A model generated the notes under the pieces. It saw only the letters and a program-made list of their open reading frames with translations, ran no database searches and had not been told where the DNA came from. Both the position numbers and the translations under genes were made by a program. Source: Maritimibacter sp. (GTDB lineage Bacteria; Pseudomonadota; Alphaproteobacteria; Rhodobacterales; Rhodobacteraceae). From it: a DNA stretch of 64,000 nucleotides. The stretch is taken from positions 4,252,001 through 4,316,000 of the forward strand of contig CP051232.1 of the NCBI GenBank assembly GCA_017792445.1. The letters are read 5' to 3'. Each line of letters begins with the position of its first letter. Position 1 is the first letter of the stretch. Of the stretch, positions 49,233 through 61,182 are shown piece after piece.

Positions 49233-50747
49233 TCAGGCCGCGTCTTTGCGGGGAGCGGCAGCCTTGCCGCGCGGATGCAGCCACGCCGGCAGGAAGCCGT
49301 AGGCGTTGCCGATGCCTTCGGCGTCGACCGGTCGACCCAGATCGGCCAGCAGACGAGACAGACTGCCATTGTTGAACGCATCGAAGGTCTCGGTCGCGCC
49401 GCCGATGTGCTTACCGCCGACAAAGATCTGCGGGATCGTCACCGCACCGGTCCGCTGCGCCAGATCGCGGCGGATATCACCGCCCCAGCCGTTCTCGCGA
49501 TATGCGGGCCCGTCGAGTTCGACGGAGCGATAGGCGATGCCCGCCGCCGCGAAGAGCTTGCGCACCGACCAGCAGAACTCGCACCATTCCAGCGCGAACA
49601 GCACGACGGGCTCGTCGGCGTTGCCGATGATTTCCTCGACATGCGCGGTGGCGGCTTCGGACGGCGCTTCGGGGGTCTGCCCGACCGGGGCCGGAGCCGT
49701 GGCGTCGAAGCGATAGCGCGGCGTCGACGCGGCGATTTCCTTCTCGTCCTCGGTCATCGTCTCTTCGATCTCGGCGAACAGCGGCGTCGACAGGTAGCGC
49801 TCGCCGGTGTCCGGCAGCATCGCGAGGATGCGCGACCCCTTCGGCGCGGTGCGCGCGATTTCCAGCGCGGCGGCAAAGGTCGCCCCGGCGGAGGTGCCGC
49901 ACAGGATGCCTTCCTGCTGCGCCAGATCCTTTGCGCATTGCATCGCGTCGGCGCCGGGTACCGGCTGAAGGATGTCGATCCAGCCCGCCTTGATGACGTC
50001 GCCCGCCAGCTTCGGGATGAAGTCCGGCGTCCAGCCCTGCATCAGATGCGGGCGGAAGGCCGGGTGACTGGCGGCGGGGCTGCCGTCGGACAGGTATTCC
50101 TGCCCGATGCCGGACCCGATCAGCGGCGAGTTGTCGGGTTCGCAGGCGACGATCTTCGTCTGCGGGCTGCGCTTTTTCAGGACGCGGGCGACACCTTTCA
50201 TGGTGCCGCCGGTGCCGAAACCGGAGACCCAGTAATCCAATGGCGCGTCCGCGAAATCGGCCAAAATCTCCTCGGCCGTGGTGGCAGAGTGAATGTCGGG
50301 ACCGGCTTCGTTCTCGAACTGGCGGGCCAGAAACCAGCCATGCTTTCCGGCAAGCTCTTGCGCCTTGGCCAGCATGCCGGACCCCTTTTCAGAGGCCGGG
50401 GTCAGGATGACCCTGGCGCCCAGCATCCGCATCAGTTTGCGGCGTTCGACCGAGAAGCTTTCGGCCATGGTGACGACCAGCGGATAGCCCTTGGCCGCGC
50501 AGATCATGGCCAGCCCGATGCCGGTGTTGCCAGAGGTCGCCTCGATCACGGTCTGGCCGGGCTTCAAAGAGCCGTCGCGCTCGGCGGCCTCGATGATGCC
50601 CATCGCCAGCCGGTCCTTGACGGACCCGCCCGGATTGGCGCTTTCGAGTTTCACGTAAAGCTCCACGCCCTCGGGCGCGATGTTGTTGATGCGGACGACC
50701 GGCGTGTTGCCGATGGCGCCGAGGATGGAAGAATGGCGGTTGGTCAT
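49233..50747 (-). CDS. Cysteine synthase fused to a C-terminal glutaredoxin
   Basis: 504 residues. Residues 1-320 are a PLP-dependent O-acetylserine sulfhydrylase: NPGGSVKDR with the PLP lysine, EATSGNTGIGLAM and SGFGTGGTMKGVARVL. Residues about 375-465 are a glutaredoxin with the CxxC site WCEFCW (near residue 389), TIPQIFVGGKHIGG and FDAFNNGSLSRLL. It joins cysteine formation with a thiol-disulfide domain in one polypeptide, which could protect or steer the product thiol, for example toward persulfide or glutathione chemistry (inference). It follows a globin gene and two tiny genes in one operon. Confidence 0.93.
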   Translation of the reverse strand: MTNRHSSILGAIGNTPVVRINNIAPEGVELYVKLESANPGGSVKDRLAMGIIEAAERDGSLKPGQTVIEATSGNTGIGLAMICAAKGYPLVVTMAESFSVERRKLMRMLGARVILTPASEKGSGMLAKAQELAGKHGWFLARQFENEAGPDIHSATTAEEILADFADAPLDYWVSGFGTGGTMKGVARVLKKRSPQTKIVACEPDNSPLIGSGIGQEYLSDGSPAASHPAFRPHLMQGWTPDFIPKLAGDVIKAGWIDILQPVPGADAMQCAKDLAQQEGILCGTSAGATFAAALEIARTAPKGSRILAMLPDTGERYLSTPLFAEIEETMTEDEKEIAASTPRYRFDATAPAPVGQTPEAPSEAATAHVEEIIGNADEPVVLFALEWCEFCWSVRKLFAAAGIAYRSVELDGPAYRENGWGGDIRRDLAQRTGAVTIPQIFVGGKHIGGATETFDAFNNGSLSRLLADLGRPVDAEGIGNAYGFLPAWLHPRGKAAAPRKDAA

Positions 50748-51570: not shown

Positions 51571-51618
51571 TGTTTCAGACGAACGTCCGCAAGGGGCCCT
51601 TCATGTTTCTTATGTTTC
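51571..51618 (-). promoter_or_regulatory. Shared two-part element, copy a (globin operon)
   Basis: Plus-strand reading: TGTTTCAGACG at 51571-51581 and GTTTCTTATGTTTC at 51605-51618, with the first GTTTC words 33 bp apart. It fits YGTTTCAGWCS plus GTTTC-N4-GTWWC, found before five operons here. It lies just upstream of the globin start (51529); the distal half overlaps the stop codon of the response regulator gene. Confidence 0.6.
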
Positions 51619-52318
51619 AGCCGGGGTCATAGATGTATCCCACGCCGCGCACGGTGCGGATCACTTCGGGGAACTGGGGGTTCACCTCGATCTTCTTGCG
51701 GATGCGGCTGATGCGGATGTCGATCGAGCGATCGAACGGGTCCCACGACCGGTCATGCGCGCCTTCAAGGATCTGGTCGCGGTTCAGCACCCGCCCTCGG
51801 TTGCGTGCGAACAGTTTCAGCAGGTTGAACTCCATCGAGGTCAGCGGGATCTCGGTGCCGTCCTCGTCGGTCAGCTTCGCGGCGTCTATGTCGAGCCATG
51901 TCCGGCCAAAGCGGTGGCGGCTGCGCTCTTGCGGCGGCGCCTCGGGCGCGGCGCTGCCGCGGCGGCGCAACACGGCCTTGATCCGCGAATGCAGCTCGCG
52001 CAGGTCCACCGGCTTGCCAAGATAGTCGTCGGCGCCCATCTCAAGGCCCACCACACGGTCCACCACCTCTCCGGCGGCGGTCAGCATGATCACGAAAGGG
52101 CCTTCATCGGCCTGCATCGAGCGCAGCACCGACAGCCCGTCCTCGCCCGGCATGTTGATGTCCAGCACCACGAGGTCGGGCGGATCTTCCGCCATCACCG
52201 CGCGCAACTGTTCGGCATTTCCGGCGGCGCTGACGCGAAGGCCGCGGCCGCCCAGGTATTCCACCAGCATCTCGCGGACATCGGTTTCGTCGTCGCAAAC
52301 GATCACGTGGTCGCTCAT
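51617..52318 (-). CDS. OmpR-family response regulator
   Basis: 233 residues. Receiver domain 1-120 with VIVCDDETDVREML (acidic pair), phosphoacceptor Asp53 in LVVLDINMPGEDG and the conserved Lys in DDYLGKPVDLRELHSR. The winged-helix DNA-binding domain at 135-230 includes LTSMEFNLLKLFARNRG and IRTVRGVGYIYDPG. ATG 52318 overlaps the kinase stop (ATGA). It is the output of the globin-cyclase-kinase operon and the best candidate for binding the GTTTC direct repeats (inference). Confidence 0.95.
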   Translation of the reverse strand: MSDHVIVCDDETDVREMLVEYLGGRGLRVSAAGNAEQLRAVMAEDPPDLVVLDINMPGEDGLSVLRSMQADEGPFVIMLTAAGEVVDRVVGLEMGADDYLGKPVDLRELHSRIKAVLRRRGSAAPEAPPQERSRHRFGRTWLDIDAAKLTDEDGTEIPLTSMEFNLLKLFARNRGRVLNRDQILEGAHDRSWDPFDRSIDIRISRIRKKIEVNPQFPEVIRTVRGVGYIYDPG

Positions 52319-54240
52319 TTGCGGCCTCCCTTCAGTCCCGAAAGCATCGAATGCGCCAGCTTGCGCAGTTCCGCCGGGGCGATCGGCTTTTCAAGATACG
52401 GGCGCCCCGCGCCGTTCAGGAACCCGCTGGCCTGCGGACTCATGGTGTCGCCGGTGACGAAGCCGATGCGCTGCGCCATGTGGGGCCGGGTCCGCAACAC
52501 GGTCTCGTACAATCCGCGCCCGCCCATGCCCGGCATGTTCAGGTCGGTCAGTACCAGCGTGTAGACCTGCCCCGACAGCTTCTCGAGCCCCGCTTCCGCC
52601 GTGCCCGCGATGTCGACCGCGAAGCCTTCCTTCTCCAGAACTTCGCGGATCAGGTCGCAGACGTCCTGCTCGTCGTCGATCACGAGGATGCGGGCGTTGG
52701 TGGCAGAGGTCTCGGCGTCCTCGACCTCGGCCACCTGCCCATCTCCGCCGACCGTCACCGGCAGGTGGATCACGAACCCCGCGCCGCCCCCCGGTTCCGG
52801 TTCGAACCGGATCTGACCGTCATGGGCCGCGATGACACGGTGCGCCAGCGCAAGGCCCAGCCCCGTGCCGGTGCCGAGCGGCTTGGTGGTGAAAAGCGGG
52901 TCGAAGATGCGGCGGCGAATGGAGTCAGGGATGCCGGGGCCGTTGTCGGAAATGACCAGTTCCACCGCGTCGCTTCGTGCATCATGCCGCAGCGCGACGC
53001 GGATCAGGTCGCCGGTCCCGCTGTCGCGGATCGCCTGTTCAGCGTTGGTGATAAGATTGATGACCACCTGCGCCAGCTGGTGCGCATCGCCCCGGACCTG
53101 CGGCAGGTCCGGCCCAAGATCCGTCTGCACCTCGGTCGAAAGCCCGTCGGTCCCGTTCAGCAGCGCGTCGATCGCCATCTCGACGGTCTCGCCAACGTCG
53201 ATCGGCACCAGCCGAACCGGCTGCTGCCGCGCCATGGCAAGGAAGGACTTCACGATCCGCGCACAGCGCTCGGCGGCGTCCGAAATCTTCTCGACCCGGC
53301 GCAGCGTCTCGGGATCGGTATTCTCTTCCCGCAGCATCAGCGCCTGCCCGACGACGACGGACAAGGGGTTGTTCAACTCGTGCGCGACGCCCGCCAGCAA
53401 TTCGCCAAGCGCCGACATCTTCTCGGCCTGAAAAATCTGCTCGCGCTGTTCGGCAAGCTTGCGGCGCATCTCGACCTCGCGCGAGATGTCGACGGTCGAG
53501 GACACCATGACTTCTTCGCCGCGATAGTCGATCAGCCGCGCGGAGACGAGGCTGGGAAACCGGGCGCCATCCGGACGCAGCGAGGTGACATTCATATCAT
53601 CCAGCCGTCCGTCCGGCAGCAGCGCGGTGATGAAATCCGCCCGCTCCTCGCGCGAGGCGAAATGCTCGGTGGTCTGCTTGGTGGTTCCCAGAAGCTCGGT
53701 CGCGGCGGGCGAGCGGTACAGGATCTGCCCGTCACCCACCCGCGACATGACGACGTTGGCCGGACAGGCTTCCAGCACCTTTTCCAGCAGTTCGTCCGCC
53801 TCGCGCGCGCTTTCGGCCAGCTTGCGGCGGGCGGTGATGTCGCGGATCGACAGCAGGAAGCCGCCGGTCGAGGTCTGCTGCATCTTCGCCTGAAACGCCG
53901 CACCGTTCGGCATGTCCATCTCGAAGGGCGGAACGTCCACCTCTCCCGCGTCGAGCTGTTCCTCCATCGCAGCAAAGCGCTGCGCCGCCGACGACAGCAG
54001 CACGCCCCGCGCCACGAACTCGCGCAGAAGCATGTCCCAGCTCAGCCCCGGCTCGAGGATATCGGCCAGCGCGTTGTTGATCATGCCCCGGAAACTCGCG
54101 TTGCACCGCAGAAGCGTCGCGTCCTCGTCGAAGATCGCAAGCCCCTGCCCCTGCGCGTCCATCACGTCGCTGAGAAGAACGGAATAGTCCAGGTCGCTTC
54201 CGTCGTCGCCCTGCGACATCGGAGAGGGACGCAGCGCCAT
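52315..54240 (-). CDS. PAS-containing hybrid histidine kinase
   Basis: 641 residues from ATG 54240. Layout: PAS-like 20-140 (GQGLAIFDEDATLLRCNASF), PAS 145-265 (VLEACPANVVMSRVGDGQIL), HisKA with His287 in AGVAHELNNPLSVV, HATPase_c 385-495 (NLITNAEQA, DNGPGIPD, GTGTGLGLALA), and a C-terminal receiver 517-640 with Asp566 in LVLTDLNMPGMGG. No membrane segment, so it senses a cytoplasmic signal. It starts 1 nt after the cyclase stop and overlaps the response regulator gene. The internal receiver suggests a phosphorelay or feedback step. Confidence 0.95.
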   Translation of the reverse strand: MALRPSPMSQGDDGSDLDYSVLLSDVMDAQGQGLAIFDEDATLLRCNASFRGMINNALADILEPGLSWDMLLREFVARGVLLSSAAQRFAAMEEQLDAGEVDVPPFEMDMPNGAAFQAKMQQTSTGGFLLSIRDITARRKLAESAREADELLEKVLEACPANVVMSRVGDGQILYRSPAATELLGTTKQTTEHFASREERADFITALLPDGRLDDMNVTSLRPDGARFPSLVSARLIDYRGEEVMVSSTVDISREVEMRRKLAEQREQIFQAEKMSALGELLAGVAHELNNPLSVVVGQALMLREENTDPETLRRVEKISDAAERCARIVKSFLAMARQQPVRLVPIDVGETVEMAIDALLNGTDGLSTEVQTDLGPDLPQVRGDAHQLAQVVINLITNAEQAIRDSGTGDLIRVALRHDARSDAVELVISDNGPGIPDSIRRRIFDPLFTTKPLGTGTGLGLALAHRVIAAHDGQIRFEPEPGGGAGFVIHLPVTVGGDGQVAEVEDAETSATNARILVIDDEQDVCDLIREVLEKEGFAVDIAGTAEAGLEKLSGQVYTLVLTDLNMPGMGGRGLYETVLRTRPHMAQRIGFVTGDTMSPQASGFLNGAGRPYLEKPIAPAELRKLAHSMLSGLKGGRK

Positions 54241-54241
54241 G

Positions 54242-55294
54242 TCAGCGCACTTCCTGCGGCGCGGGCATGTCGGCCTCGAGGGCATAGACCTCTTCGACCG
54301 CGTTGCCGGACATTTCCACCTCGCCGACCGGTTCCAGCCGGAAGCCCTCGGGCAAGGTGTTGGCGGTGCGGCTGTCGATCACGATCCGCATCGGACGCGC
54401 CCAGTGGCGCAGCGTGCTGGCGTGGGTCACGGCGGGACCGAAGACATCGTAGATGTATTTCTGGACGCCAACGACCGATCCGACCACCGGGCCGGACGAG
54501 ATCCCGACGCGGCAGGTCCACTTGATCGGGTGCGTCTCGTTGCGCTGGTTCAGGTAGCGCAGGAACCGCACCGAGGCGTTAGCGGCAGCGGCGCCGTGAT
54601 CCTCGGCCGGGTCCGGCATCCCCGCCATCGCAATATAGAAGTCGCCCACGGCGCGGATGCGGACGCAGCCGAACTGCTCTCCGATCCGGTCGAAGGCGGT
54701 GTAGATGTCGTTCAGCTCGGATACGATGACCCCCGGATCGTGCTCGATGACCATGTCGGAAAAGCCCACGAAATCCAGGTAGATCGCCGATACCGGGTCA
54801 TACAGCCGGGGCGTGACCACGCCGAAGGTCGTGTATTCCTCGTAGACCGAGCGCGGCATCATGTTCAGCAGCAGCTTCTCGACCTGCTCCTTCTCGCGCT
54901 TGATCTCGCGCGTGTTGCGCTCGACCATCATGGAATAAGAGTCGATCATCGACTCCAGTTCCTTGATCCGGCTGATGTTCTGACAGACGAGAACCGCGAT
55001 GGGGTCCTCGCCGTCCAGCGCCTTGTTGAAAGCCAGCGCGACCGTCATCGTACGGCGGCGCACGCGAAAGGTCGTTTCGGTCGCATAGCGGCCGTCCTCG
55101 TTCAGCGCCGCCTTCAGCGGTTCGGGGTCGAGGCTCGCGAACAGCTCGGACAGGTGCTGACCGATTTCGATGTCGCCGAACCATTCCCGGAACGTATCGT
55201 TGTGGAACTTGATCCGGAACGTCTCGAGATCCAAAAGCGCGACGCCCACGCCGATGGCGCGAAGAAGCTGTTCGTTGATCGCCTCGATGGACAT
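54242..55294 (-). CDS. PAS-class III nucleotide cyclase-like protein with altered active site
   Basis: 350 residues: PAS-like domain 10-110 (AIGVGVALLDLETFRIKFHN), coiled linker 110-145 (a signalling helix), then a class III cyclase domain 160-330. The two metal aspartates are present (Asp174 in YLDFVGFSD, Asp218 in RAVGDFYIAMAG), and Asp283 in YDVFGPAV aligns with the base-recognition Asp. The base-recognition Lys is Arg214, and the transition-state Asn and Arg align with Thr290 and Thr294 (AVTHASTLR). Catalysis may therefore be weak, altered or absent. TGATG-coupled to the truncated haemoglobin upstream, which may be its sensor or partner. Confidence 0.9.
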   Translation of the reverse strand: MSIEAINEQLLRAIGVGVALLDLETFRIKFHNDTFREWFGDIEIGQHLSELFASLDPEPLKAALNEDGRYATETTFRVRRRTMTVALAFNKALDGEDPIAVLVCQNISRIKELESMIDSYSMMVERNTREIKREKEQVEKLLLNMMPRSVYEEYTTFGVVTPRLYDPVSAIYLDFVGFSDMVIEHDPGVIVSELNDIYTAFDRIGEQFGCVRIRAVGDFYIAMAGMPDPAEDHGAAAANASVRFLRYLNQRNETHPIKWTCRVGISSGPVVGSVVGVQKYIYDVFGPAVTHASTLRHWARPMRIVIDSRTANTLPEGFRLEPVGEVEMSGNAVEEVYALEADMPAPQEVR

Positions 55295-55650
55295 CAGTCG
55301 ACCACCAGCCCGCGGCGGGACTCGAACGCGCCGACGATCGTCTGGATATCGTCCTCCGCCACGCCGTGATCGCTTAGGGTCTGGCGCAGGATCTGCTCCA
55401 GCTTGTCGAAATGCGCGTCGCCAATCGGCAGGCGGGCGTGCATTTTCTCGATCTGGTCGTCGGTATAGCTTGCCGGACCGCCCATCAGCGACGAAACGAA
55501 CTTGGTCTGGTGATCCACGATGCGGCTCATCTCGACGTCGTCGAAGAAAGGCCCCACGTCGTCGTCATCCAGCAGCCGGTCGTACAGATCGAGGACGATC
55601 TTGCTGACGACCGAGAAGCCTCCGTACTTTTCGAACAGTGTCTTTTCCAT
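55294..55650 (-). CDS. Group I truncated haemoglobin
   Basis: 118 residues from ATG 55650. TrHbN features: start LFEKYGGFSVVSKIVLDLYDR with Tyr23 at B10, VGPFFDDVEMSRIVDHQTKF with His47-Gln48 at E6/E7, a Gly-Gly corner (MGGPASYTD) and the proximal His71 in MHARLPIG. It would bind O2 or NO in the cytoplasm. It is the first gene of a four-gene operon with cyclase, hybrid kinase and response regulator, and overlaps the cyclase gene by one base. A sensor role rather than simple detoxification is suggested by this coupling (inference). Confidence 0.93.
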   Translation of the reverse strand: MEKTLFEKYGGFSVVSKIVLDLYDRLLDDDDVGPFFDDVEMSRIVDHQTKFVSSLMGGPASYTDDQIEKMHARLPIGDAHFDKLEQILRQTLSDHGVAEDDIQTIVGAFESRRGLVVD

Positions 55651-55771
55651 ACCAGTTCCCCATCCCTTCTTGGCGTTCGCCGGACCCGTTTTGCTTAGAA
55701 GACAGTGAATCATGGGCCGATGGTTTACGTAGGATCAAGCAATTTGCGTTCTCCCCAGCCGACACCGCCGG

Positions 55772-55821
55772 CGTTTCAGTCGTGTGTCGGGCAACACCCG
55801 CTTCTGTTTCAATTGTAACAG
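55772..55821 (-). promoter_or_regulatory. Shared two-part element, copy b (truncated-haemoglobin operon)
   Basis: CGTTTCAGTCG at 55772-55782 and GTTTCAATTGTAAC at 55806-55819, 33 bp apart. The second half is also an 18-bp dyad, CTGTTTCAATTGTAACAG (55804-55821). It lies between the truncated-haemoglobin start (121 bp away) and the divergent DUF1127 gene. Confidence 0.6.
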
Positions 55822-55934
55822 CTGGGCGGTTTGGGTCGAAAAACTGAAGCAAACCCGTGGCTTCAAAGACATCGGACCGAAACGCGGATCGGGGAAAACT
55901 GCTTCATCGAAACTGCAAACGATGGAGAGACATC

Positions 55935-56087
55935 ATGAAAGCCAAGATCAACGACTTCCGCCGCACGATGGCCGAACGCCGCGAAGCCCGGCAGATTTAC
56001 CGGGCCACCCGCCATCTGGACGCGCATATAATGCGCGACATCGGTCTGAACCGCGACGACTACCACGACCGGGTTCACCGGATCTGA
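55935..56087 (+). CDS. DUF1127-family small protein
   Basis: 50 residues from ATG 55935 with a GGAGAGA ribosome-binding site. The pattern RREARQIYRATRHLDAHIMR followed by DIGLNRDDYH matches the DUF1127 (YjiS-like) domain, whose L-D-x-R-x-L-x-D-I-G-L motif is seen here as LDAHIMRDIGL. These short, arginine-rich proteins are common in alphaproteobacteria and have been linked to phosphate uptake, RNA binding and stress. It is monocistronic with a strong terminator. It is divergent from the truncated-haemoglobin operon and shares its promoter region. Confidence 0.9.
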   Translation: MKAKINDFRRTMAERREARQIYRATRHLDAHIMRDIGLNRDDYHDRVHRI

Positions 56088-56137
56088 CGGTGCCGGGCCT
56101 TCCGGCGCGACCCCGCAAACAGCCTCCTCCCTGACTG

Positions 56138-56170
56138 CGCCTTCCGGTTCCCCCCCGGAAGGCGTTTTTC
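56138..56170 (+). terminator. Rho-independent terminator of the DUF1127 gene
   Basis: CGCCTTCCGG / CCGGAAGGCG stem with a seven-base loop, followed by TTTTTC, 51 bp after the stop. Confidence 0.9.
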
Positions 56171-56219
56171 GTTTGGGTTGGCGGTGCGGCCAGAGCCGCC
56201 GGCCCAGACCCGCCGAACG

Positions 56220-56252
56220 GAAAAACGCCCCCGCAGGGTTCTGCGAGGGCGT
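56220..56252 (-). terminator. Rho-independent terminator of the FAD oxidoreductase gene
   Basis: On the minus strand an ACGCCC-TCGCAG / CTGCGGGGGCGT stem ends in TTTTT, 27 bp after the stop at 56279. Confidence 0.85.
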
Positions 56253-56278
56253 GTCTCTGTGTTCCCCAACGTGTCGCG

Positions 56279-57418
56279 TCAGGCCGCCACCGGCATCTCT
56301 GAGGTCATGCCCGCGATCCACTTCTGGTTCGCCTTCATGTCCTCGTTCAGCTGCCGGTGCAGGTCCATCAGCTCGGGCAGCGTCCATTGCAGCGACGCGA
56401 CCCGGTCGGTCAGGTCGAAGAACCGCCCCGAAAGCTTCATCCGAAGCGCCGGGAACTGTGCGACAGCGCCGCCGATGATGGCATTCGCAAGGATCTCTGC
56501 ATCGCGCAGGGCGTCCGTGATGCCATGCGCGGTCGCCGGGTCGCGGAAATAGCCCGCGTCACCGACCAGCGCCCAGCCCGGCCCGGCGGATTGCCGGAAA
56601 TAGCCGGGCTCTCCGCGAAACACGACCGGCGACGTGACCCGGCGCGCGCCTGCGATCTCGTCGGCGAGGACCGGCACGTTTCCGGCAATGAGGCCCTCCG
56701 GCGTGACGGACCCGAAGGCCTTCATCCTATCGGGCGTCACGCCGACGAAAACGCAGGAAAGCCCGTCGTTCGTCGGGATGATGCCGCCGATCGCGCCGGG
56801 CGCGTGGTGCCAGCGGAAACCCCGGTCGGGCAGCCCGTCGAAGTAAGCATAGGTGCAGGCGGTGGTGAACCGTGCCGTGCGGACCGTCCGCGCCTTCACC
56901 TGTCGCGCGACAGCCGAGCGGCGGCCGTCCGCGCCGATGACGATCCCAGAGAAGACATCTTCCGTTTGCCCGTTCGCACGGCGTAACCGGACGCCGATCA
57001 CCCTGCCCGACTCGTCGTGCAGCAGCCCGGCGCAGCCGGTGCCAAAGCGGAACTCTGCACCCGCCGCCGCTGCCTCGCGCACCAACGCAAGGTCGAGACA
57101 ACTGCGGCGTGGCGCATACAGGGCGTCGACGCCGCCCGAGGCGCGGATGTCGATGTCGATCTCTTCCGAGCCGTACAGGAACGTGGTGCGCCGGACGGCG
57201 GGCGTGCCCTCGGCGCGGATCGCGTCGAGAACGCCCCACTTGTGCAACTGGAACACCGCGCCCCGCATCAGCGCATGGGTCGACATGGTGTCGGTTCCCG
57301 GCTGGCCGTGATCGGCCACGAGAACCCGCGCCCCGCTTCGGGCCAGAAGCATGGCGGTCGAGGCTCCGGCGCAGCGGGCGCCGATGATGATTGCGTCGTA
57401 CTGGGTGCGCTGGGTCAT
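56279..57418 (-). CDS. FAD-dependent oxidoreductase (FAD_binding_3/geranylgeranyl reductase-like)
   Basis: 379 residues from ATG 57418. FAD motifs: YDAIIIGARCAGASTAMLLA (GxGxxG-like, here GARCAG), GIVIGADGRRSAVARQV (the GD/DG motif) and WALVGDAGYFRDPATAHG. It resembles flavoprotein monooxygenases and reductases acting on lipid or aromatic substrates; the substrate is unknown. It follows the flavin monooxygenase gene by 14 bp on the same strand, ends with a strong terminator and thus belongs to a two-gene operon behind shared element copy d. Confidence 0.88.
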   Translation of the reverse strand: MTQRTQYDAIIIGARCAGASTAMLLARSGARVLVADHGQPGTDTMSTHALMRGAVFQLHKWGVLDAIRAEGTPAVRRTTFLYGSEEIDIDIRASGGVDALYAPRRSCLDLALVREAAAAGAEFRFGTGCAGLLHDESGRVIGVRLRRANGQTEDVFSGIVIGADGRRSAVARQVKARTVRTARFTTACTYAYFDGLPDRGFRWHHAPGAIGGIIPTNDGLSCVFVGVTPDRMKAFGSVTPEGLIAGNVPVLADEIAGARRVTSPVVFRGEPGYFRQSAGPGWALVGDAGYFRDPATAHGITDALRDAEILANAIIGGAVAQFPALRMKLSGRFFDLTDRVASLQWTLPELMDLHRQLNEDMKANQKWIAGMTSEMPVAA

Positions 57419-57432
57419 GGCTGGGACTCCTG

Positions 57433-58683
57433 TCAGGCTGCGCGAAGGTGGCGGTGAGTGAGATGGGTGGAAACGGCGGGTGCGAGGTCCTCGGCATCGC
57501 GGCCAACGCCGTCGATGAAGGCGGAACTGCGCCGTCGCATGTAGGGGAGCCCAAGGACGAAGAGACCGGGCACGGCGGTATGGCCGCCGAAGGTCGCGAT
57601 CTCGCCGTGCCGGTCGAGGACCGGGATCTTCAGCCACGGATAGCAGCGGCGGAACCCGGTGGCCCAGATCACCGTCGAGATGCCGTTGGCGGCAAGGTCG
57701 ATCCGGTCCGGACCGGCCGGCAGATCGGCAGGCACCGTCCAGGCGTCAGGCTCGGCTGGCGCGTCGATCCCCATGGCGTCCGCGAATGCGTCGATCCGCG
57801 TCAGCAGGGTTTGGCGACGGCGCTCGGCGGCCGCGCGCTCGTGGCTGAGGTCTGCGGAGAACTGCACGGCTCCCCGGTCGGCGTGCAACGCACGCCCGAC
57901 GATCCGGACCCCGGACGCGGCCAGTTGGTCGAGGTCGATATTTCCCCCGGCCTGATCGCCGATCAATTGCAGTGACGGCTGAACCCGCAGGCGTGCCGGG
58001 TCCGCGCCTGCGGGCTGGCCCTCGTCCAGAAAGCCGCAGGCGTCGAGCCATTCGAACAGGTCGCGTCCACGATAACGGCGCGGCGTGCGGACGTGGCGAC
58101 CAGCGGCCAGCGTCACCTCGCGGCCAGAGGCGCGGATCTCGGCAGCCAGTTGCACGCCTGTCGCAGAGGCGCCGACGATCAGCACGTTGCCCTTCGGCAG
58201 GCTGGACACGCCGCGATAGCCAGAGGGTGCGAGCTGGTGGACAGTGTCCGGCAGGCTTCCGGCCCACGACGGGACCGAGGGTTTGTCGCAGGCCCCGGTC
58301 GCAACGACGACGCTGCGGGCGATCCAGTCGCCGGTCGAGGTCTCGACCCGGAACCGTCCGCCCGTCTGACGGACCGCCAGCACGTCGCACCCGGTTTCGA
58401 CCGGCGCGCCTATGTGGTCCGAATAGCCGGAGAGCACTTCCGGGAAGGCGCGTGCCTTGAGGAAATCGCGGGGCGCGTCCAGGCTGGGCGCCGGTCCCGG
58501 CAAGCGCATCATCCAGTTCGGCGTCAGCAGGCGCAGACCCGGCCAGCGTTCCGACAGCCAGCGTTCGCCGATCCGCCCACGCTCCAGCACGACATGATCG
58601 ACGGCCCTGCGGCTCAGACAGTGGCTCATCGCCAGGCCGGCCTGGCCGGCTCCGATGATCAGGGCGTCGATTGTGCGGGGCAT
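57433..58683 (-). CDS. Flavin-containing monooxygenase-like protein (CzcO/TrkA-type)
   Basis: 416 residues. FAD-binding IIGAGQAGLAMSHCLSRRAV at the N-terminus, an NADPH site NVLIVGASATGVQLAAEI near residue 170, and VIWATGFRRCYPWLKIPVLD, the ATGF motif of class B flavoproteins. It may oxygenate S- or N-containing compounds or reactive carbonyls. ATG 58683 is fixed by the shared element 45 bp upstream. First gene of an operon with the FAD oxidoreductase. Confidence 0.9.
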   Translation of the reverse strand: MPRTIDALIIGAGQAGLAMSHCLSRRAVDHVVLERGRIGERWLSERWPGLRLLTPNWMMRLPGPAPSLDAPRDFLKARAFPEVLSGYSDHIGAPVETGCDVLAVRQTGGRFRVETSTGDWIARSVVVATGACDKPSVPSWAGSLPDTVHQLAPSGYRGVSSLPKGNVLIVGASATGVQLAAEIRASGREVTLAAGRHVRTPRRYRGRDLFEWLDACGFLDEGQPAGADPARLRVQPSLQLIGDQAGGNIDLDQLAASGVRIVGRALHADRGAVQFSADLSHERAAAERRRQTLLTRIDAFADAMGIDAPAEPDAWTVPADLPAGPDRIDLAANGISTVIWATGFRRCYPWLKIPVLDRHGEIATFGGHTAVPGLFVLGLPYMRRRSSAFIDGVGRDAEDLAPAVSTHLTHRHLRAA

Positions 58684-58727
58684 CTGAATGTCTCCGGGTT
58701 GCTTCGACCACCATCGTCGCGCCCGCG

Positions 58728-58776
58728 CGTTTCAGTCGGATGGCCCGGAGTTCCGTCAAAGGTTTCATATGTTTCC
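58728..58776 (-). promoter_or_regulatory. Shared two-part element, copy d (flavin monooxygenase operon)
   Basis: CGTTTCAGTCG at 58728-58738 and GTTTCATATGTTTC at 58762-58775, 33 bp apart, 45 bp upstream of the monooxygenase start. Confidence 0.6.
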
Positions 58777-58796
58777 GCGCCAAGGCTCACCCATGA

Positions 58797-58826
58797 GAAA
58801 AGGCCCGCAACGGATGCGGGCCTTTC
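58797..58826 (-). terminator. Rho-independent terminator of the OsmC/small-protein operon
   Basis: AAAGGCCCGCA / TGCGGGCCTTT stem with a short loop and flanking A/T runs, 27 bp after the small gene's stop. Confidence 0.85.
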
Positions 58827-58852
58827 AGGGGCGTGCGAGGTTGGGAAGCGGC

Positions 58853-59011
58853 TCAGGCCGCAATCGGGAAGTCCCGTTCGACGTCGAACTCTTCCTCGTC
58901 GACTGGGAACCAGCTTTCGGAATTCCACCAGGACAGGAAGCTTTTGTAGTCGGCCATGAAGGGCAGATCGTTGAAGCCTTCGCCGTACGGGGTTTTCTTG
59001 TTCGTTTGCAT
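58853..59011 (-). CDS. Small acidic, aromatic-rich protein, 52 residues
   Basis: ATG 59011 is preceded by a GGAGAAAGAC ribosome-binding site. The protein begins MQTNKKTPYGEGFNDLPFMA and has a Trp pair (SFLSWWNSESWFP) and an acidic tail (VDEEEFDVERDFP). No family, signal or membrane helix is recognised. It lies 62 bp after the OsmC-like gene, before a strong terminator, so it is almost certainly expressed with that gene and controlled by shared element copy c. It could be a partner or inhibitor of an enzyme (speculation). Confidence 0.75.
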   Translation of the reverse strand: MQTNKKTPYGEGFNDLPFMADYKSFLSWWNSESWFPVDEEEFDVERDFPIAA

Positions 59012-59073
59012 GTCTTTCTCCAGTTCATGTGTGTTTGGTGTGGGGGTGCGCGATGGCACCCCCGGTTGCGGGT

Positions 59074-59652
59074 TCAGTTCGCGATGGCGGCCACAGAGAC
59101 CGGGACACCGTTGGTGATGACGTCGAAGACCGCCGAGCGGGCCACCGACTGCTGCACGATCTTCTCGAGATCTTCCGCCGGGGCGTCGCCCTTGATGCGG
59201 AAGGTGGCGCGGATGCCCGAGAAGCCGTTGCGCACCGACTTGTCGAGGCCCAGCAGGCCCACGAGGTCGATGTCGCCTTCGACGGTGGTTTCCACCGACT
59301 GAAGCTTCACCTGACGGATCGACGCGATGTTGCCGATCCCGGCGGTGATGCAGGCGGACAGCGCGGCCAGCAGCATTTCCGGCGGCGTCATCCCGTTGCC
59401 CGTGGCACCAAGGACCTGCGGGTGATCGGACTCGACCGAGAAGGTTTCCTTGTGCTGCTGCTCGGCCATGACGCCGAAGAAGTTGCTGACGGAGGTGCGC
59501 GAGTGGTTGCCCGACAGCCATTCGCCATTCGCACGGAAGGTGAACTTGGCGATTTCGGGCTGTTCCTTCACGACGCCGAGGGTGGCGACGAAGGTCGGAA
59601 CGTCGACGCCGTTCATGGCGACCTTGGCGGGCTTTTCGAGGGTAGTGGTCAT
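59074..59652 (-). CDS. OsmC/Ohr-family protein
   Basis: 192 residues. OsmC-fold signs: SVESDHPQVLGATGNGMTPP, EMLLAALSACITAGIGNIAS with the conserved Cys, and the C-terminal EKIVQQSVARSAVFDVITNG, where the second peroxidatic Cys of classical OsmC/Ohr (usually in a SPV or CPV motif) is absent. This pattern is typical of YhfA/one-Cys OsmC-like proteins rather than peroxide reductases. Peroxide or thiol stress is the likely theme. ATG 59652 lies 70 bp after shared element copy c. Confidence 0.9.
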   Translation of the reverse strand: MTTTLEKPAKVAMNGVDVPTFVATLGVVKEQPEIAKFTFRANGEWLSGNHSRTSVSNFFGVMAEQQHKETFSVESDHPQVLGATGNGMTPPEMLLAALSACITAGIGNIASIRQVKLQSVETTVEGDIDLVGLLGLDKSVRNGFSGIRATFRIKGDAPAEDLEKIVQQSVARSAVFDVITNGVPVSVAAIAN

Positions 59653-59721
59653 TCAAATTCTCCTATCGGGGTATGTGGTCAACGGCTGCTCAGTGCCGAT
59701 GAAGCTGTTCTAGGGGGCTCG

Positions 59722-59760
59722 TGTTTCAGTCCGCGGTCGCCGAATGTTTCACTGGTAACA
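59722..59760 (-). promoter_or_regulatory. Shared two-part element, copy c (OsmC operon)
   Basis: TGTTTCAGTCC at 59722-59732 and GTTTCACTGGTAAC at 59746-59759, 23 bp apart. The second half is part of the dyad TGTTTCACTGGTAACA (59745-59760). 70 bp upstream of the OsmC-like start. Confidence 0.6.
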
Positions 59761-59813
59761 GCCGCCGGTTTTCGGGATCGGAGGCGAATTGCGCGTGCCG
59801 GGAACGGTCGGGG

Positions 59814-60359
59814 TCAGGCCGCCTGCGCGGCCACGCCCCGGAGGATCAGTTCGCGGCGATAGGCGCTTGCGGCGATGCCGAACGACAGCAGCGCGGCGGC
59901 CAGACAGGGCCACGCCCCGATCAGCGTGTCGTGGGCCATCCCGAAGGGCGCGGCGGTCAGCTGCACCCGGCGCATCCGCAGCGTGTCGGCCTGCAGGCGC
60001 GCGACCATCACCAGACAACAGGCGGTGACGGCGAACAGCGTGGGCAGGCCCGACCATGTCAGGGCGCCGATCGCCAGCACCGCCGGCAGGAACACGTACC
60101 CCATGCGGCTCAGCCACGGACGGTCTCCGGCCAGCAAAGCCACGGTGGTCTGCATCGCGCCCGTCAGGCAGACGGCGGCACCGGTCTGCTGGCCCATCAG
60201 GGCATAGCTTGTGCCGAAGCAGCAGGCGGCGGCCAGCTGGGTGATCAGGATGGACCCGCGCCTGCGAAAAAGCGGCCAGACCAGCTGGCCGGCAAGCCCG
60301 GCAATCCCGAACACGGGGGCCATTTGCGAAGCGGTCATATGTGCTGTCAGGTCGATCAT
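59814..60359 (-). CDS. YgjV-like inner-membrane protein
   Basis: 181 residues with five or six hydrophobic segments, starting MIDLTAHMTASQMAPVFGIA, then GQLVWPLFRRRGSILITQLA and YALMGQQTGAAVCLTGAMQT. This matches the Imp-YgjV family of small membrane proteins, whose function is unknown. ATG 60359 (or the inner Met8) starts it; shared element copy e lies 55 bp upstream. The TetR gene is divergent. Confidence 0.82.
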   Translation of the reverse strand: MIDLTAHMTASQMAPVFGIAGLAGQLVWPLFRRRGSILITQLAAACCFGTSYALMGQQTGAAVCLTGAMQTTVALLAGDRPWLSRMGYVFLPAVLAIGALTWSGLPTLFAVTACCLVMVARLQADTLRMRRVQLTAAPFGMAHDTLIGAWPCLAAALLSFGIAASAYRRELILRGVAAQAA

Positions 60360-60377
60360 TTTCGATACTCCGGTTGC

Positions 60378-60414
60378 AGACCATTTGGTCTAGTCCGTTC
60401 ATACCGTTTGGTCT
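60378..60414. promoter_or_regulatory. Tandem TetR-type operators AGACCA-TT-TGGTCT
   Basis: A 14-bp dyad (60378-60391) and a 12/14 copy ATACCGTTTGGTCT at 60401-60414, 23 bp apart. A third, weaker copy AGACTGTTTGGACT lies at 60531-60544, 11 bp before the TetR start. The sequence resembles NemR-type operators (TAGACC...GGTCTA), known for electrophile-sensing TetR proteins. Confidence 0.6.
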
Positions 60415-60451
60415 GTTTCAGACGTAGAGCAGCTGGAGTTTCGTTTGTTTC
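60414..60451 (-). promoter_or_regulatory. Shared two-part element, copy e (ygjV-like gene)
   Basis: TGTTTCAGACG at 60414-60424 and GTTTCGTTTGTTTC at 60438-60451, 23 bp apart. It directly abuts the second TetR-type operator, so two regulators may compete here. Confidence 0.6.
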
Positions 60452-60555: not shown

Positions 60556-61182
60556 ATGAGCGCCAAGGGCGAACAATCGAGAGAGAAGATCCTGACGGCG
60601 ACCAAGGGCCTTGTCATGCGCAAGGGCTTCGCCGGAACCTCGGTCGACGACATACTCAAGGCGACCGGTCTGTCGAAGGGATCGTTCTTCCATCACTTCA
60701 AGTCGAAGGGCGATCTTGCGAACCAATTGATACGCTGGCACTCCGCGCAAGACCTGAAGATGTTCCGGACCTTCATGGCGCAGGCCGAGGCCGCCCACGA
60801 TGATCCGATGGACCAGCTTTTGCAGTTTCTGACAGCGTTCGAGACATATCTCAGCGACCCGGACAGCCCGCCGCGCGGCTGCCTGTACGCGCTTTACACC
60901 TACGAAGACGACCACTTCGAGCACGACGTGAAAGGTCATGTCGCCGAGGTGCTTCAGACATGGACGGCGATGTACATCCGCAAGTTCCAAGAGGTGATCG
61001 ACCGCCGCCAGCCGGTCCGTCCGGTGACGGCGAAGCAATTGTCGGAGATGTTCGTCTCGGTGATCGAGGGCGGGCTGATCCTGCAGCGGGCCTATGGATC
61101 GCCCGGTCTGACCGCCCGACAGTCGGAACAGTTCAGAGAGTACCTGAACCTACTGTTCCCGGACGGGCGCGCCGTCACCTGA
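60556..61182 (+). CDS. TetR-family regulator
   Basis: 208 residues from ATG 60556. Helix-turn-helix GLVMRKGFAGTSVDDILKAT followed by GLSKGSFFHHFKSKGDLANQ, the classic TetR recognition helix; the ligand domain has a RGCLYALYTYEDD segment with a single Cys (near residue 111). Members of this subgroup with NemR-like operators sense reactive electrophiles by cysteine modification. The operator copies upstream support autoregulation and control of the divergent YgjV-like gene. It converges with the phosphotransferase gene, 25 bp apart. Confidence 0.92.
   Translation: MSAKGEQSREKILTATKGLVMRKGFAGTSVDDILKATGLSKGSFFHHFKSKGDLANQLIRWHSAQDLKMFRTFMAQAEAAHDDPMDQLLQFLTAFETYLSDPDSPPRGCLYALYTYEDDHFEHDVKGHVAEVLQTWTAMYIRKFQEVIDRRQPVRPVTAKQLSEMFVSVIEGGLILQRAYGSPGLTARQSEQFREYLNLLFPDGRAVT

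Follow-up and report, generated by a model that had tools for sequence, protein, structure and literature searches.

The vir box of Agrobacterium is printed as the 14-bp pattern RTTDCAWWTGHAAY (PMC11351099) and also appears in a TGWAAY form (PMC10432156), the PhoB box spans 22 bp, consists of two direct repeats, and usually replaces the -35 element in E. coli (PMC4971064), and Mycobacterium PhoP recognizes a direct-repeat pair (DR1/DR2) with a further repeat (DR3) at a variable distance (PMC3413638). The element analysed here, which joins a box in the vir box register to a second box placed like a pho box, precedes five operons of one gene cluster in a window of 64,000 nucleotides (the whole stretch of DNA analysed; Maritimibacter sp., GenBank assembly GCA_017792445.1, contig CP051232.1, positions 4,252,001 to 4,316,000). 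In gene sense, the element comprises box A (GWWAC-N4-GAAAC) and, downstream of it, box B (SGWCTGAAACR), which ends in CTGAAACR. Comparison of the window with its genome and with related loci indicated that these boxes are very probably tandem binding sites of the cluster's own OmpR-type response regulator (RR), which would activate the five operons. In the proposed mechanism, the PAS hybrid kinase of the cluster, once activated by a signal, would phosphorylate the RR. The phosphorylated RR would bind box B, which stands in for the -35 element and is separated from the -10 by some 10 bp. It would also bind box A, which lies on the same DNA face at an upstream distance of 31/32 or 41/42 bp, and the proteins bound at the two boxes may contact each other. 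The bound RR would then recruit RNA polymerase and turn on the five operons jointly, including the operon of the RR itself.

An earlier note on this DNA had described the 11-mer YGTTTCAGWCS at five positions, each followed by a GTTTC-N4-GTWWC at one of two distances and all in one orientation, and this description was confirmed in full. The 11-mer is present without mismatches at 51571, 55772, 58728, 59722, and 60414, always on the plus strand, while GTTTCN4GTWWC is present, also without mismatches, at 51605, 55806, 58762, 59746, and 60438, with no further copy in the window. The distances from GTTTC to GTTTC are 33, 33, 33, 23, and 23 bp, and the gene coordinates place each site upstream of a minus-strand unit. 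The sites are named here in gene sense, which is the complement of the plus strand, with the promoter-distal box A first and the promoter-proximal box B second; all boxes and genes listed below are thus on the minus strand. Site 1, with box A at 51605–51618 (GAAACATAAGAAAC) and box B at 51571–51587 (GACGTTCGTCTGAAACA) at an offset of 42 bp, lies upstream of the globin gene (PF00042, 51095–51529), and its box A shares 2 bp with the 3' end of the RR gene. Site 2 (box A, 55806–55819, GTTACAATTGAAAC; box B, 55772–55788, GACACACGACTGAAACG; offset 42) precedes the unit at 51617–55650, which encodes a truncated hemoglobin (trHb; PF01152, 55294–55650), a protein with a PAS and an adenylate/guanylate cyclase domain (PF00211, 54242–55294), a PAS-PAS-HisKA-HATPase-receiver hybrid histidine kinase (52315–54240) as the proposed partner of the RR, and the RR (51617–52318) as the proposed binder of both boxes. 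The RR shows the OmpR/PhoB family architecture, with a receiver domain (PF00072, 94.7 bits) and a winged helix (PF00486, 80.1 bits) that both score above the cut-off, and its recognition helix reads DIRISR. Site 3 (box A, 58762–58775, GAAACATATGAAAC; box B, 58728–58744, GCCATCCGACTGAAACG; offset 42) is upstream of a flavoprotein pair, consisting of a Pyr_redox_3 protein (57433–58683), which is similar to the MSMEG_0569 family (302 bits, cut-off 498), and a FAD_binding_3 protein as the second gene (56279–57418). Site 4 (box A, 59746–59759, GTTACCAGTGAAAC; box B, 59722–59738, GACCGCGGACTGAAACA; offset 32) precedes the unit at 58853–59652, with a gene for an OsmC-family protein (PF02566, 59074–59652) and after it an open reading frame of 52 amino acids (58853–59011); a -10-like hexamer, TAGAAC, lies 9 bp beyond its box B. 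Site 5 (box A, 60438–60451, GAAACAAACGAAAC; box B, 60414–60430, GCTCTACGTCTGAAACA; offset 32) is located upstream of the gene for a YgjV-like membrane protein (Imp-YgjV, PF10688, 59814–60359).

Across the genome, which is a single contig of 4,675,334 bp, the two-part pattern with a gap of 14–24 has exactly five exact copies, all in the cluster; none is on the opposite strand, and the backwards control gave no match. The box B core YGTTTCAGWC alone occurs 31 times genome-wide, indicating that the specificity resides in the combination of the two boxes. When up to two mismatches were allowed at the spacings of 33 and 23 bp, the two covered with mismatches in this genome, 8 and 3 extra matches were found, all with two mismatches and none with one, versus 3 and 3 in the backwards controls; one of the 8 falls at site 5 of the window. 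These two-mismatch matches are read as background, although a few weak sites elsewhere in the genome are conceivable. In four other genomes of the same genus in the sample, the best RR matches are paralogs with at most 46% identity, suggesting that the cluster is probably accessory.

Related loci were gathered with a PAS-cyclase alignment, taking the best 80 of 192 confirmed loci together with L042, L043, L044, and L046, for a total of 84 (L045, which is on the same contig as L052, and L047–L049, which have no cluster, were left out). Judging by their titles, most of these are Rhodobacterales, and Rhizobiaceae with their relatives, Sphingomonadales, Kiloniellaceae, and Sneathiella are also represented. 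In the stretches examined, the trHb gene lies by the cyclase gene in all 84 loci, the kinase is found in 78, the RR in 73, OsmC in 36, flavoprotein 1 and CysK in 34 each, flavoprotein 2 in 27, the globin in 11, and YgjV in 8. GTTTC-N4-GTWWC has 175 copies in these loci (1.67 Mb), compared with 6–22 for other gaps (0–3 and 5–13), 23 for the backwards pattern, and 6–38 for eight permuted patterns. According to our own simple gene caller, by which 78% of the sequence is coding, 171 of the 180 box A sites in the 84 loci and the window are not wholly within a called gene. Box A precedes OsmC at 16 sites, flavoprotein 1 at 14, trHb at 11, and the globin at 9, as well as YgjV (9), an alpha/beta hydrolase (7), CysK (4), and others. 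The 51 box A sites upstream of the kinase gene suggest that the kinase/RR operon is likely autoregulated in relatives.

Analysis of the spacing revealed two classes that are one helical turn apart. Exact TGAAAC has 138 copies 15–139 bp downstream of box A, of which 129 are at offsets 31, 32, 41, or 42; upstream of box A, no comparable peak of TGAAAC offsets was found. Among 142 sites near gene starts, a best YTGAAAC (up to one mismatch, offsets 20–69) was found at 126, with 120 at 31, 32, 41, or 42 and 6 at 30. The offset depends on the operon, with 41 at the kinase promoters (46/51), 42 at most others, and 32 or 42 at OsmC. The bases of the spacer between box A and box B diverge, while the boxes and their spacing are kept. 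Two-part matches with up to one mismatch number 208 in 97 loci, versus 1 in the same loci read backwards; with up to two mismatches, they are present in 80 of 85 loci, and none was found in L090, which is 6.5 kb long, or in L120, L124, L126, and L127, all from Sneathiella.

Box B is itself an 11-bp direct repeat, whose second, weaker half yields the pattern GAMAT-N6-GAAAC in gene sense. In 135 box B sequences, G is found at -11 in 96%, A at -10 in 79%, and A at -8 in 81%, and the weaker half keeps its G in all five copies of the window but is looser otherwise. A -10-like position lies 10 bp downstream of the GAAAC of box B, with A at +16 in 90% of the same set, and the kinase promoters of relatives carry the T and A of the -10 in 46 of 46 cases. 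Counted from the presumed -10, box B covers approximately -38 to -22 and box A approximately -69 to -56, or 10 bp closer. Box B sits where the -35 element and the spacer would be, which would also suit an RR acting mainly as a repressor of the promoter that it overlaps. However, no -35 consensus is seen beneath box B, and the -10-like position kept 10 bp downstream is the pattern of PhoB-type activation (PMC4971064, PMC3413638). The distant, helically phased box A fits cooperative activation, although repression by looping is still conceivable. Taken as a whole, a mainly repressing RR appears rather unlikely.

The earlier note had proposed that one regulator binds two phased sites and that the OmpR-type regulator encoded within the cluster is the natural candidate. 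Both proposals gained support from the two spacing classes in related loci, the co-occurrence of the motif with RR orthologs, the association with the RR and its recognition helix, and the likely autoregulation in relatives. An RR with at least 55% identity is present in the stretch examined in 71 of the 84 loci, and 70 of these 71 have a two-part match (up to one mismatch), compared with 8 of the 13 loci without it; in the whole genomes of these 13, an RR was found at E ≤ 1e-60 in 8 and none in 5. Matches were present in 22 of 26 genomes scanned, with a total of 57 versus 7 in the backwards control, and four of the 5, all Sneathiella genomes with the trHb-cyclase pair and no RR match at E ≤ 1e-60, gave 0 motif matches. 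Of 394 genomes of the family, 16 have an RR match at E ≤ 1e-72, and 10 of these carry the exact pattern with correct spacing, compared with 9 of the 378 genomes without such a match (p = 3e-11; genomes counted by hand from match lengths of 36, 37, 46, and 47). One of these 9, G244, carries a split RR and the cluster. Matches at any spacing occur in 44 of the 394, indicating that the spacing filter matters. The strict form GWCTGAAAC was rejected as a family-wide marker because it is too strict; it was found in 7 of the 394 genomes, with G115, G113, and G353 having no cluster gene in the stretch examined.

Plasmids and the recognition helix provided further evidence. A 519-kb Aminobacter plasmid encodes an RR with 58% identity and the same helix, and both of its two-part matches are within 6 kb of the RR, approximately 100–110 bp upstream of genes for DUF1127 (L183, 3895–4134) and DUF1344. 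A cyclase search of all plasmids at E ≤ 1e-60 matched in Novosphingobium only and gave none on the Aminobacter plasmid, which alone was covered for that genome. The Ruegeria TM1040 megaplasmid, with an RR of 62% identity and the helix LRIS, has no motif, and the kinase is the sole cluster gene annotated in the stretch. Among the 85 loci whose RR shares 50% identity or more, the motif is present in 74 of 76 with the helix IRIS and in 2 of 8 with other readable helices (p = 2e-6; LRIS 1/5, IQVS 1/1, LRVS 0/1, NRIS 0/1), and in the one with an unread helix. In a tree of 122 RR homologs, IRIS falls in a 90-leaf clade (support 0.66) that includes six LRIS/LRVS sequences, besides two whose helix the automatic pattern misread; the helix type thus lacks strict monophyly. 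Together, the Sneathiella genomes without RR and motif, the Aminobacter sites beside the RR, and the association with IRIS indicate, at the level of sequence, that the motif goes with the RR and with the type of its recognition helix, and not with the target genes. The trHb/PAS-cyclase pair of the four Sneathiella loci may work on its own. Sister RRs with the helices LRIS, LRVS, and NRIS were observed near related kinases or PAS proteins in seven loci (L173, L174, L175, L176, L177, L179, and L182), where no motif was found except one site with one mismatch in L177; these RRs likely belong to a related system with another box.

The same comparisons bear on whether another regulator binds the element while the RR merely travels along, either a cAMP-responsive Crp/FNR protein answering the product of the cyclase or the TetR protein encoded at 60556–61182. 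The cyclase gene within the operon and the TetR gene adjoining site 5 would agree with such a binder. In contrast, the motif was not found in the four genomes with trHb-cyclase and without an RR match, lies near the RR on the Aminobacter plasmid without a cyclase match, and follows the RR recognition helix, while a TetR match occurs in 8 of 84 loci only. The consensus of the element also differs from the Crp box. Crp/FNR and TetR were judged unlikely as the binder on this co-occurrence, and a regulator other than the RR is quite improbable.

Box B could also be the -35 of an alternative sigma factor, as CTGAAAC is near-invariant and promoter-proximal and resembles a heat-shock -35; however, CTGAAA is only about 11 bp from the -10-like position, too short for a sigma-factor spacer of about 16–18 bp, and box A and the two phased spacings would be left unexplained. 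The spacer length ruled out this reading of box B, and we consider the sigma factor explanation highly improbable. Chance, or an inherited duplication without function, could account for five window sites within a single 9-kb cluster but deserves practically no credence, given the kept boxes and spacing around diverging spacers, at least eight target families, and the backwards control of 1 versus 208, all of which contradict it.

Several observations weigh against joint activation by the RR from both boxes. G423, the remaining one of the 5 whole genomes without an RR match, has 3 motif matches, in an assembly whose contig stops within the kinase. The exact pattern with correct spacing is missing from six of the 16 RR genomes; five of them (G020, G231, G327, G343, and G355) have a different helix, with a one-mismatch site in G020 and G355, and in the sixth, G240, the contig end falls in the kinase. 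The match in G210, one of the 10 counted above, and the LRIS-type RR of that genome are on different contigs, and the match appears to be accidental. Two IRIS loci have no motif (L172, at a contig end, and L110, on a 9.4-kb contig), and two non-IRIS loci, L043 and L177, have it nonetheless. With regard to the promoters, A at +16 alone stands out in the 74 that are not kinase promoters (88%), and in the window the -10 hexamer is convincing at the OsmC promoter only and weak in the other four. The periods of the two boxes differ, with 9 bp in box A and 11 bp in box B, so that one protein must bind in two ways unless a second protein is involved. In addition, the counts ignore kinship, with at least two genomes doubled (L044/L114 and L118/L178), and the p-values overstate independence.

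Of nitric oxide, oxygen, reactive sulfur, and cyanide as candidate signals, none is picked out by the Pfam and NCBIfam names of the neighbours, and these family names assign no pathway to the hemoglobins, cyclase, flavoproteins, and OsmC; the set of targets suggests defence against a reactive small molecule. A gene for a cysteine synthase fused to a glutaredoxin domain (49233–50747) comes after the globin gene, and the CysK gene of relatives is preceded by a two-part site of its own (the 4 box A sites above). A DUF1127 gene of 50 amino acids (55935–56087) points away from the trHb operon, and a 2025 paper reportedly ties DUF1127 proteins to a sensor kinase (PMC12501420). Between site 5 and the YgjV-like gene, by the divergent TetR gene, lie a palindromic AGACCATTTGGTCT (60378–60391) and a copy-like ATACCGTTTGGTCT (60401–60414), a pair that is possibly a TetR operator overlapping the site 5 promoter. 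On plasmid pLA3 of Novosphingobium pentaromativorans US6-1 (L181), the cluster adjoins an arsenic resistance operon and is followed by genes for a pyridoxal phosphate (PLP)-dependent enzyme and a PLP decarboxylase.

The RR was compared with the described members of its family. It scores best with OmpR (223 bits), with TorR at 172 and ArcA at 150, all below the cut-offs, and a search of solved structures gave general OmpR-family RRs and receiver-domain proteins only. TorR- and ArcA-type RRs have hybrid partner kinases, and the kinase here is likewise a hybrid; the tor box differs from both boxes. The pho box has a period of 11 bp. Similar to the PhoB box, box B consists of direct repeats that lie close to the -10 and substitute for the -35, but its sequence is different, the upstream box A is additional, and the RR reaches 153.6 bits with the PhoB model TIGR02154 (cut-off 296.2). 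The pair of repeats with a distant repeat recalls Mycobacterium PhoP, although the distant element here is a box of two halves and two phase classes cover nearly all cases. Regarding the statement in the earlier note that no described motif has this form, no paper on the literal box sequences or on this gene combination was found among the open-licence PMC literature, where absence in print is not established, but the statement needs some qualification, as box A has the register of the vir box and the placement of box B resembles that of a pho box.

Resemblance was also found to VirG and the vir box. Both systems combine an OmpR-type RR with a hybrid kinase, and box A has the same 14-bp register; the core CAWWTGHAAY is exact in 77 of 142 sites, and TGAAAC fits TGWAAY. 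Compared with RTTDCAWWTGHAAY, box A of these 142 sites is exact in 17 (including one of the five window sites, box A of site 2 at 55806–55819), with one mismatch in 11, two in 51, three in 47, and four in 16. Most sites here have GAA instead of RTT, forming a direct repeat, and a second box, box B, stands at a fixed spacing, with hemoglobins, flavoproteins, OsmC, and a cyclase as targets. The RR scores 176 bits with the NCBIfam VirG model (NF010430, cut-off 344) and is therefore called a reader of a vir-like box rather than VirG. The kinase, though a hybrid, scores 164 with a VirA-like model (cut-off 647); a search for VirG equivalogs at E ≤ 1e-90 gave none in 142 genomes of the class and none in 14 controls either and was thus uninformative. 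On the basis of sequence only, the analysis sets out the box code and the probable regulon of a conserved two-component system, and the phased spacing makes the cooperation of distant OmpR-type sites directly testable. As a tentative proposal, the cluster might represent a two-component system that is widespread in Alphaproteobacteria, appears to be undescribed, and reuses a VirG-like DNA code outside virulence. Such a system might tie the trHb/PAS-cyclase pair to jointly regulated defence genes (globins, OsmC, flavoproteins, and CysK-glutaredoxin) by means of promoters whose two boxes can shift by whole, but not half, helical turns; the hemoglobin and the cyclase might then feed back on the pathway, so that a gas or redox signal would be connected with a cyclic nucleotide. 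Through its resemblance to the vir box, the element offers a relative outside virulence for studying how the vir box is read.

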